Shown one piece after another: positions 9,183 through 54,203 of a DNA stretch of 64,000 bases. Position 1 is the stretch's first letter. Each line of letters starts with the position of its first letter. The notes under the pieces were generated by a model that saw only the letters and a list, made by a program, of their open reading frames with translations, did not search any database and was not told the DNA's origin. The stretch is from Flavobacterium faecale (GTDB lineage: Bacteria > Bacteroidota > Bacteroidia > Flavobacteriales > Flavobacteriaceae), in the NCBI RefSeq assembly GCF_003076455.1, contig NZ_CP020918.1, positions 992,001 through 1,056,000 of the forward strand, written 5' to 3'. A program made the position numbers and the translations under genes.

Positions 9183-9397
9183 TCAACTGATAAAAAATAG
9201 CAAATAAGGAAACCATACCCCCCTCCTAGCCCCGATTAAAGTGAAAATCCTTTTGTGGTGACGAAAGGAACCATAAAAGATTGTAACGGAAAGCGGGAAC
9301 CATACTTCCTGAAAAAGCTATTATTTCCGCTCCAAAAAAAGCAGCTAATTCCAACTTGCATTGAACATTGTCAATTCTTCCGAACTGAAATTGTTAC
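9183..9397. repeat. Direct repeat, copy 1 (with decayed helicase tail)
   Basis: This ~215-bp block starts TCAACTGATAAAAAATAGCA and repeats at 14603-14827. The first ~160 bases differ at only a few positions. The last ~50 bases, read in reverse, encode FSSEELTMFNASWN and a stop, a diverged copy of the helicase C-terminus FSWEELKMFKASLN found in copy 2. Copy 2 also carries a short GCCCCGAAGTGTCGGG insertion absent here. Confidence 0.85.
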
Positions 9398-19245: not shown

Positions 19246-19519
19246 TAGTATTCAGTCTCGGTTTTCAGTCTTCATTATATTTAGATTGAAAATCGAACTT
19301 CACAGTTTAATTAATTTATAAAAACTCTTTTGGTAGTGATAGCAGGACTTACGGCCGTAGTTTCACGTGGAACAATGTTTGGTATTCTTTTGCAGTATTC
19401 TTTTGCAGTATTCAGTATTCAGTCGCAGTTGTCAGTCGCAGTTGTCAGTCGCAGTTGTCAGTCGCAGTATTCAGTTACAGTTGCAGTTGTCAGGCACAGT
19501 ATCCAGTATCAGTATATCA
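19246..19519 (+). repeat. Degenerate minisatellite, CAGTNNTCAGTCNCAG units
   Basis: CAGTATTCAGTATTCAGTCG and CAGTTGTCAGTCGCAGTTGT patterns repeat from about 19401 to 19510, preceded by isolated units such as AGTATTCAGTCTCGGTTTTC at 19246. Units vary between 6 and 15 bases. The two overlapping plus-strand open frames here are made of the repeat and are not genes. Confidence 0.85.
19359..19374. promoter_or_regulatory. parS-like site 1
   Basis: AGTTTCACGTGGAACA differs from the ParB-binding consensus TGTTTCACGTGAAACA at two positions. It lies between the methyltransferase and the first minisatellite array. Confidence 0.65.
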
Positions 19520-19619
19520 TCTGAGTGTAATATTAAAACCCTCTGCTTCCAGCATAAGCTTACACATTCGAAACATTTAAACTAATTACAAAGTAAACTC
19601 AATAATTGAAGCCTAATAC

Positions 19620-19795
19620 TCAAAACTGAGACTGAGACCGAAGACTGAGACCGAAGACTGAGACCGAAGACTGAGACTGAAGACTGAGACTGAAGACTGA
19701 GACTGAAGACTGAAACCGAAGACTGAAACCGAAGACTGAGACTAAAGGAGACTGAGATTCAAAACTGAGACTGAGACCGAAGACTGAGACTGAAA
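19620..19795 (-). repeat. Minisatellite, GAAGACTGAGACC/T units, inverted relative to the first array
   Basis: About fourteen units of the 12-base type GAGACYGAAGACT run from 19620 to the mnmG stop codon at 19796. On the minus strand these read CAGTCTTCAGTCTC, the same vocabulary as the array at 19401-19510 but in opposite orientation, so the two arrays can pair imperfectly across 110 bases. Confidence 0.85.
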
Positions 19796-33275: not shown

Positions 33276-33418
33276 GATTGACATTTACAAAAAGTAGTTT
33301 TAAAAATAGTAGTAAATTATAAATTTTATAAAGAGTTTATCTTTAAACAGTTATAATACAAAAAGTAAATTATATTGATAAAACTTCAATTTTATTTTAA
33401 ATTTTTAAACTTTTTGAG

Positions 33419-33426
33419 TACTTTTG
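33419..33426 (+). promoter_or_regulatory. TAnnTTTG -7 element for tRNA-Cys
   Basis: TACTTTTG lies 17 bases before the tRNA 5' end, at a fitting distance for a transcript that starts a few bases upstream. Confidence 0.5.
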
Positions 33427-33442
33427 TCACCCGCTTAACAAC

Positions 33443-33513
33443 GGCGTCGTGGCCGAGCGGCTAGGCTGGGCTCTGCAAAAGCTCCTACTCCGGTTCGAAT
33501 CCGGACGATGCCT
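33443..33513 (+). tRNA. tRNA-Cys (GCA)
   Basis: The acceptor strands GGCGTCG and CGATGCC pair fully with one G-T. The D stem is GCC/GGC, the anticodon stem is GGGCT/AGCTC around the loop CTGCAAA (anticodon GCA), and the T stem is TCCGG/CCGGA around TTCGAAT. Discriminator base is T. No CCA is encoded. A terminator follows, and then the tandem array of its own 3' end. Confidence 0.95.
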
Positions 33514-33515
33514 CA

Positions 33516-33550
33516 AAAACCTTCAAGGAAACTTGAAGGTTTTTTTTTTG
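33516..33550 (+). terminator. tRNA-Cys terminator
   Basis: AAAACCTTCAAG-gaaa-CTTGAAGGTTTTTTTTTT begins three bases after the mature 3' end. Variants of this hairpin recur with each array unit. Confidence 0.85.
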
Positions 33551-33576
33551 CTTATACTTCCCAAAAACTTCTATAA

Positions 33577-33935
33577 CCGGTTCTCCCGAAGCGTCGGGAC
33601 GGACGATGCCTCAAAAACCTTCAAGGAAAGAGGAGGTTTTTTTGTTTAAATTCCAAAAAGCTACTAATAACGGTTCTCCCGAAGCATCGGGAAAGACGAT
33701 GCCTCAAAAACCTTCAAGGAGACTTAGAGGTTTTTTTTTTGATTTTAATTCCCAAAAACTTCTATAACCGGTTCTCTCGATGCGTTGGAACGGACGATGC
33801 CTCAAAAGAGATACAGAAATGTATCTCTTTTTTTTTACTTTTATTTGAAAAAACATCTATAAACGGTTCTCCCGAAGCCTCGGGACGGACGATGCCTCAA
33901 AAACCTTCAAGGAAACTTGAAGGTTTTTGAGGCTA
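33577..33935 (+). repeat. Tandem array of four ~96-bp units derived from the tRNA-Cys 3' end
   Basis: GACGATGCCTC, the 3' acceptor strand of the tRNA, recurs at 33602, 33695, 33793 and 33888, with spacings of 98, 93, 98 and 95 bases counted from the tRNA copy at 33504. Each unit has GGTTC, then a hairpin of the type TCCCGAAGCGTCGGGA in place of the T-loop, then the acceptor strand, a terminator hairpin and ~35 AT-rich bases (AATTCCCAAAAACTTCTATA). None has a 5' half, so none is a tRNA gene. Confidence 0.9.
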
Positions 33936-34373
33936 CTGATTTTTATAAATAAGTTATAATTCTGGATCAACTAAGTATCGGGACGCACAATAACTCACTA
34001 ACCTTACACTAATCTTCCAGGTTTTTTATTATCCATTTAGAAATCTTCAAATCTAGACTCGATATAAGCGTAACATGACAACTGAAGACCTAAGTTTCAT
34101 TACTTTTTTTATCATAGTAATTGCCAGCAAAACAACATTAAACCATAATTATTAATGGTACTGCATTATAGTCGTTTTTAAAAAAAGGTTTTGGTAAACA
34201 TTGTATTGTGTGAGGGATAGAAATAAAAAGCCCACAAACAAGTGCAGCGTTAGCGTAACTTGTTGAGGACTTGTAATGTATAGCCCGACCGGCTTTTTTT
34301 GCCGGGCACGCCCAAAATGTTATTTTAAACGAAAATGAGACTGTATAACCAATTTTTGATAGCCACATACAGG
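33936..34373. other. Gene-free spacer
   Basis: The frames present give no plausible protein. A GC-rich hairpin, GCCCGACCGG-cttttttt-GCCGGGC, lies at about 34283-34307. Confidence 0.4.
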
Positions 34374-54008: not shown

Positions 54009-54203
54009 ATTAACGTCCCGAAGCGTCGGGATTGATTTTTTATTTTGTGCAAGTAAATAAAAACGTGCTTATTTTCAGCGTTTTAGCGAATAATAAATTG
54101 AATATTGGGATTGATTTTGTCTAAGTAAAAAATATTTCATTTGTTTTTAGCGTTCTCTCACATCTGAAATCGTTAACCAGTCCCGACGCTTCGGGACGTT
54201 AAT
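54009..54203. repeat. 195-bp element with 23-bp terminal inverted repeats
   Basis: ATTAACGTCCCGAAGCGTCG (first 20 of 23 bases, 54009-54031) is repeated exactly in reverse complement at 54181-54203. The internal ~150 bases hold two diverged direct copies of GGGATTGATTTT...AGTAAA...TTTTAGCG. The arms contain the CCCGAAGCGTCGGG palindrome. Confidence 0.75.

Follow-up and report, generated by a model that had tools for sequence, protein, structure and literature searches.

What process leaves four tandem remnants of a tRNA gene behind one intact copy? The question is raised by the tRNA-Cys locus of Flavobacterium faecale, which lies in the window studied here, that is, the whole stretch of 64,000 nucleotides from position 992001 to 1056000 of the 4.62 Mb single-contig genome. 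The array at this locus is more than chance and belongs beside a class of arrays that recurs at tRNA genes; how it may have arisen is considered below from its anatomy, its spread and its likeness to known systems.

The tRNA-Cys array and its occurrence in the genus

The tRNA scan placed the intact tRNA-Cys gene (anticodon gca) at positions 33443-33514 of the forward strand, with the T-loop GTTCGAATC at 33493-33501, and partial copies follow it in tandem, all on the same strand. The array is genuine and beyond chance, given that GACGATGCCTC occurs five times in the window against 0.01 expected and that none of 100 shuffles reached five. All five matches are confined to the array and start exactly where the sequence-only reading had located them (33504, 33602, 33695, 33793, and 33888). 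One copy belongs to the tRNA-Cys gene and the other four to downstream units of 93-98 bp, the tail-to-tail distances being 98, 93, 98, and 95. Tandem Repeats Finder delimited the repeat at 33502-33928, with a period of 98 and 4.4 copies.

All units lie on the forward strand. Unit 1 (33515-33612, 98 bp) opens with the terminator of the tRNA-Cys gene itself (33515-33544, 13 pairs and a T-run), which is followed by a spacer, CCGGTTC (33577-33583), a hairpin (33584-33599) and the tail. Units 2 (33613-33705, 93 bp) and 3 (33706-33803, 98 bp) begin with imperfect terminators, behind tails 1 and 2, respectively; after the spacer, unit 2 has CGGTTC, a hairpin at 33677-33692 and its tail to 33705, and unit 3 has CCGGTTC (33768-33774), a hairpin at 33775-33789 that reads as decayed, and its tail to 33803. 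In unit 4 (33804-33898, 95 bp) the terminator behind tail 3 (33804-33831) is perfect and has a wholly different stem, and the spacer leads to CGGTTC, a hairpin at 33870-33885 and the tail to 33898. The closing palindrome (33894-33933, forward strand), which is the last terminator, consists of 18 pairs and extends back into the tRNA tail (GCCTC...GAGGC). It had been claimed that every copy keeps the acceptor strand and a terminator and exchanges the T-loop region for a hairpin. As to the hairpin, TCCCGAAGCnTCGGGA, this stands for three of the four units, where it is intact and directly follows the CGGTTC of the T-arm, and fails for unit 3. As to the terminators, three of the five passed the terminator scan, namely that of the gene, that of unit 4 and the closing one. 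Besides the acceptor strand, the units also retain the 5' half of the T-arm, as CCGGTTC or CGGTTC.

The six neighbouring proteins are GlnRS, FolB, LysE, a DUF2807 protein, RNase R, and a Band 7 protein; no integrase was found among them, and no genomic island lies between the units. No GIY-YIG gene was detected in the window, the 12 PF01541 matches of the genome all being elsewhere. Since the locus has no nuclease gene, it was filed as an ORF-less relative of the arrays described below and not as a full member of their class. Other features of the window are clustered 13-bp tandem repeats at 19382-19794 and a Flavo-1 RNA (71 bits) at 9224-9304.

A readable tRNA-Cys locus was available in 60 of the 61 genomes of the genus, the present one included. 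Strict tails were found at 19 of the 60 loci (one unit in nine, two in six, three in two, and four in two) and were absent from 41, and at least one loose tail was seen at 33; because one locus had only 55 bp downstream, these counts are lower bounds. The comparison of unit number between relatives, proposed from the sequence alone, gave 0 to 4 strict units over the genus, and therefore the array is not identical in all relatives. By reading, most strict tails begin at the T-loop GTTCGAATCC, followed by the terminator and an AT-rich palindrome, and one genome (L117) carries near-identical units of 92 bp. The T-loop hairpin was present at two of the 60 loci (this genome and one other), 17 of the 19 strictly tailed genomes being without it by the pattern used. 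No GIY-YIG gene was found in the available flanking DNA of any of the 60 tRNA-Cys loci, one of them with only 55 bp downstream. When a tRNA-class nuclease was assigned by score, with a 59-bit profile threshold and with the genomic context seen in part of the genomes, it was found in 14 of the 19 genomes with strict Cys tails vs 19 of the 41 others (p = 0.057); in the 51 better genomes, the values were p = 0.064 for strict and p = 0.023 for loose tails. This co-occurrence of Cys tails and tRNA-class nuclease genes is a weak trend only.

Nuclease-bearing arrays at other tRNA genes

Above the Rfam cut-off, 58 tRNA matches were obtained in the genome, and partial tRNA copies were found at six tRNA loci: Cys, Asn, Phe, and Pro, by searching the 4 kb downstream of each tRNA for its last 14 nt with up to two mismatches, and Met and Arg, added by reading the sequence. 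Its 12 GIY-YIG matches comprise three long and nine small proteins. By reading, eight of the nine small genes lie within tRNA arrays (two each at Met, Phe, and Asn, one of the Phe genes having an in-frame stop, and one each at Pro and Arg), so that five of the six arrayed loci have a nuclease gene; the ninth has no tRNA link. The array genes are chromosomal, encode about 80-105 amino acids and are flanked by the intact tRNA on one side and its hairpin-bearing partial copies on the other. PF01541 was recognized in four of the proteins of these other arrays with E-values of 8.1e-11 to 2.5e-16, and the nearest solved structures by sequence were 1zg2 and 1ywl, both named UPF0213.

Two of the eight array genes are displaced. 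One is the second Asn copy, which transposase genes separate from the rest and which, judging from its flanking sequence, was probably once part of the Asn array. The Arg copy is located about 6 kb from tRNA-Arg and has the same tail; a tyrosine integrase (PF00589) directly adjoins this displaced tail (L075 600-2730), and an island seems to have entered between tRNA-Arg and its GIY-YIG unit. The tRNA-Pro array consists of 11 units, ten without and one with the ORF; the ORF-less form corresponds to the nuclease unit with an internal stretch deleted, the first bases and the end of the ORF being kept.

A search of the species genome collection with a profile built from three array proteins gave 273 relatives, of which the best 80 were kept. 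By title, nearly all of these 80 are Bacteroidota, the three labelled otherwise being a Streptomyces griseus MAG, a Bifidobacterium breve MAG, and an uncultured bacterium. The context was counted for 74 of them, as six had less than 100 bp upstream. A tRNA on the same strand lay upstream of the GIY-YIG gene within 100 bp in 53 of the 74 and within 700 bp in 62, with a tail copy also present at 48 of these 62 loci, and no tRNA on the opposite strand was found within 700 bp of any of the 74. The isotypes were mainly Arg, Val, and Pro, which the query favours.

Within the genus, the nuclease profile matched in 49 of the 61 genomes, and a tRNA lay within 700 bp at 27 of 30 GIY-YIG loci (one each from the best 30 genomes). 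Eight complete congeners gave 35 small GIY-YIG matches; among the 25 examined, 15 had a tRNA upstream, one was a further array copy, one had a tail without a tRNA, and eight were unrelated to any tRNA. The rule that every small GIY-YIG gene is tRNA-linked was rejected on account of these eight. In a search of the Asn type over 199 genomes of the family, 86 matched, and 27 of 30 loci stood beside a tRNA, the other three being L242, L246, and L256.

The arrays take several forms. At one locus, a near-perfect array of five 350 bp units stands behind a single tRNA-Pro. In the mirror form the order is reversed, hairpin-bearing 5' fragments of the tRNA, together with GIY-YIG genes, preceding the intact copy; this form was recognized by reading at L265, L253, and L244 and, by position, at eight of the 30 Asn-search loci (further L243, L245, L250, L251, and L257). 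A tRNA-Ser of another family (L277 500-1243) is flanked by ORF-less heads of 85 bp and, on the opposite side, by a GIY-YIG unit that contains two hairpins. The anatomy of the class is one intact tRNA with partial copies whose arms are replaced by hairpins of the TCCCG...CGGGA type, the complete form including a small GIY-YIG gene.

The hairpins and the nuclease clades

Unit anatomy was measured at 47 of the 80 loci, those in which positions could be assigned to tRNA, ORF stop, and tail alike (the 33 skipped had no tRNA within 700 bp in 19 cases, no tail in 13, and no stop in one). The anticodon arm was kept in none of the 47 tails, a stem of at least six pairs was present in 45 of them vs nine of the 47 intact tRNAs by the same test, and the stop codon of the ORF fell within tRNA-derived sequence at 22 loci. 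Given that hairpins chosen for the best stem are complementary by construction, covariation was counted after anchoring on no more than the outer five pairs, T(C/T)CCG...CGG(G/A)A, a pattern that matched in 43 of the 47 loci and gave 35 distinct hairpins. Pair 6 was complementary in 34 of the 35 (AT 24, CG 6, TA 4, AG 1; shuffled mean 19.7) and pair 7 in 32 of 32 (TA 21, CG 10, TG 1; shuffled mean 25.5). Neither value was reached by any of 1000 shuffles, which ignore the kinship of the sequences.

The TCCCGAAGCnTCGGGA hairpin is itself a dispersed repeat, found at 32 places in the genome, many of them non-tRNA. The pattern TCCCGAN{3,8}TCGGGA occurs 78 times in this genome vs none for the reversed control, and at least once in 88 of 99 genomes of the phylum, many of which have only a few and some no more than the control. 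Two further TCCCGA hairpins of the window, at 54016-54031 and 54181-54196, are away from any tRNA. Hairpins of the TCCCG...CGGGA type directly follow the GGTTC of the T-loop in nuclease-bearing Val tails (L181 and L190) and in one further Val tail, where the nuclease frame is broken. With this dispersal and this placement, the suggestion that a repeat element had targeted the T-arm pointed in the right direction. In another relative, each of three units (L282, about 932, 1335, and 1738) has its GIY-YIG gene interrupted by a TCCCGATAGCTATCGGGA hairpin, and the gene then matches in two pieces, in different frames.

The nuclease is under purifying selection in the three clades analysed, with median dN/dS values of 0.06 for Val (12 of 21 pairs usable), 0.115 for Arg (27 of 36), and 0.176 for Pro (8 of 21). 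A nuclease tree of 159 sequences and 82 columns, in which 77 of the 156 inner branches are unresolved, required 20 changes of tRNA isotype over 102 loci, compared with a mean of 59 and a minimum of 52 after shuffling. The nuclease clades follow the tRNA isotype, and species kinship accounts for part of this. Near relatives differ by one unit at tRNA-Val, with two units, 99% alike, in one and a single unit in the other, at loci that are about 94% identical. The arrays thus recur at many isotypes, with isotype-linked clades and a one-unit difference between near relatives.

Nine GIY-YIG genes without tRNA linkage, including one of this genome, form a separate clade (support 85, midpoint root; L074, L127, L128, L129, L132, L143, L144, L145, and L148). 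Palindrome-like repeats surround the gene at most of these loci, as judged by eye. This clade is a possible GIY-YIG counterpart of REP elements.

Origin of the array and comparison with known systems

The explanation that we prefer, and whose chance of being right we judge to be about even, is that the array at tRNA-Cys is kin, without the ORF, to the class of tRNA-nested tandem arrays found in Bacteroidota. By analogy with phage SegB, the nuclease would act as a free-standing homing endonuclease that cuts the DNA of tRNA genes. Repair against neighbouring partial copies could then lead to units being copied, gained, and lost. ORF-less units such as those at Cys would be deletion derivatives or satellites, internal deletion being evident at tRNA-Pro and not at tRNA-Cys, and their expansion may have occurred in trans or through ordinary recombination among the repeats. 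The hairpins would label the copies as devoid of function and perhaps also as sites to be spared from cutting. The chief weakness of this mechanism concerns the intact tRNA next to the nuclease, whose T-loop is retained and which a homing enzyme would somehow have to spare. Against a nuclease link at Cys itself stand the lack of a GIY-YIG gene at the 60 genus loci and the weak co-occurrence given above. The many hairpins away from tRNA genes and the eight of 25 small GIY-YIG genes with no tRNA link also count against the explanation.

SegB of phage T6 is described as a GIY-YIG enzyme that cuts within tRNA genes; the motif RAWTSGAAC was found at 23 of 83 cleavage sites and enhances cutting, though it is not strictly required (PMC13096335). 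Tandem or segmental amplification driven by SegB is described both in cis and in trans (PMC13096335; PMC2988022). This motif is the complement of the T-loop sequence GTTCSAWTY. It lies on the other strand of the tRNA-Cys T-loop (33493-33501) and in none of the four Cys units; in the window as a whole it is no commoner than by chance (10 matches vs 6.84 expected). Over the 47 measured loci, a SegB-like motif is still present in 22 tRNA fragments and missing from 12 intact tRNAs. As 22 of the 47 fragments keep it, the T-loop hairpin was rejected as a general mark of immunity against T-loop cutting.

A serious rival, to which we assign somewhat less than an even chance, is plain tandem duplication: slippage or unequal exchange would have doubled the 3' end of tRNA-Cys together with its terminator, and an independent palindrome would have landed later and been co-amplified, with no nuclease at the locus. 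The E. coli tyrT locus is a precedent for duplication of a tRNA 3' end, and the 60 tRNA-Cys loci without a nuclease in cis, the 17 of 19 strictly tailed genomes without the hairpin, and the near-identical 92 bp units of L117, which suggest a simple recent duplication, all agree with it, as does the dispersal of the hairpin, which interrupts nuclease genes in one relative (L282). What this rival must contend with is that nuclease-bearing Val tails have hairpins of this type at the corresponding point of the T-loop, that six tRNA loci of one genome, five of them with a nuclease, are alike in anatomy, and that the ORF-less units of tRNA-Pro correspond to the nuclease unit with an internal deletion.

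The two other explanations concern integration and RNA. Since tRNA 3' ends are known integrase targets, the array had been thought to stem from an attachment site, with a tail left at each past island insertion. No integrase among the six neighbouring proteins, units of a regular 93-98 bp with no island between, and T-loop hairpins that insertion leaves unexplained all speak against such an origin at the Cys locus, which we disfavour as very improbable; it is kept as a low rival because a tyrosine integrase of this genome immediately adjoins the displaced tail of tRNA-Arg, where the integrase idea does apply. A functional non-coding array, in which transcription past the first terminator would yield small RNAs or the terminators would be stacked, is improbable as well. 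The rtT RNA of E. coli tyrT is a model for it, and the three intact terminators out of five, one of them with a different but perfect stem, fit some selection on termination. The notion that each unit makes a structured RNA drew weak support from the fold z-scores of the four units (-0.67, -1.75, 0.14, and -1.78), and small structured RNAs from the Cys units were rejected on these scores. In addition, the absence of strict tails from 41 of the 60 genus loci implies that a non-coding array has no essential role, and the RtT model was not among the 16 Rfam matches to 33400-34000 up to E 5, so that membership of the array in the rtT RNA was rejected too.

A bolder extension of the nuclease-driven explanation, which we regard as rather doubtful, is that the arrays are phylum-wide mobile units of Bacteroidota made of a GIY-YIG nuclease and an anticodon-less hairpin pseudo-tRNA. 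Each clade would be dedicated to one isotype and always leave one tRNA intact, either ahead of the partial copies (tails) or after them (heads); the covarying TCCCG...CGGGA hairpin would be a working part that serves for recognition or immunity, and arrays without the ORF, such as that at Cys, would be satellites amplified in trans. If so, the scattered hairpins would have been left by GIY-YIG activity, and hairpins and nuclease together would parallel REP elements with their transposases.

Few sequences in a cell are as conserved as its tRNA genes. A nuclease class widely settled in the tRNA genes of a phylum and sparing one working copy would be a chromosomal counterpart of the phage homing endonucleases, and it would account for many small GIY-YIG genes and TCCCGA hairpins in Bacteroidota. 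ORF-less arrays such as Cys would then be readable traces of past nuclease action. The data hint at a little-noticed selfish DNA built around tRNA genes, and they raise the questions of how the intact tRNA escapes cutting, why the anticodon arm has been substituted, and whether arrays affect tRNA supply.

With respect to known systems, the Cys array resembles the 3'-tail repeats of E. coli tyrT, in which tandem units of about 178 bp, each starting with the last 19-22 nt or so of the tRNA, stand behind an intact gene. It differs from them in its units of 93-98 bp and in the lack of an Rfam RtT match, and we know of no nuclease or hairpin substitution in the tyrT repeats. The array nucleases share the catalytic domain PF01541 with the single-domain GIY-YIG proteins of the UPF0213/YhbQ type, whose known members, to our knowledge, are not nested in tRNA arrays. 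In fungal mitochondria (e.g., Allomyces atp6), a GIY-YIG homing gene is likewise flanked by a complete gene and by a residual duplicate of that gene's 3' end; that case concerns protein genes and mitochondria, and as far as we know it has no hairpin-substituted copies. In the REP/RAYT system, dispersed hairpins are linked to a single-domain nuclease, RAYT, which is a Y1 transposase; the likeness lies in the second GIY-YIG clade, found by eye mostly among palindrome-like repeats, and the difference in the nuclease, which here is GIY-YIG.

A phage origin of the nucleases was not favoured, as four array nucleases had no match in a PHROG search and one protein matched a single phage record weakly (35% identity, E 6e-4). 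No description of tRNA-nested GIY-YIG arrays of bacterial chromosomes was found in the literature searched, a weak indication given that it comprised open-licence PubMed Central only, and we consider the class a new form of tRNA-associated homing nucleases. Its closest parallel is SegB of phages T4 and T6, a free-standing homing endonuclease likened here by its published description: in both, a small GIY-YIG gene is placed next to tRNA genes. Unlike the phage system, the arrays have chromosomal genes, hairpin-bearing partial tRNA copies, and nuclease clades linked to the tRNA isotype.
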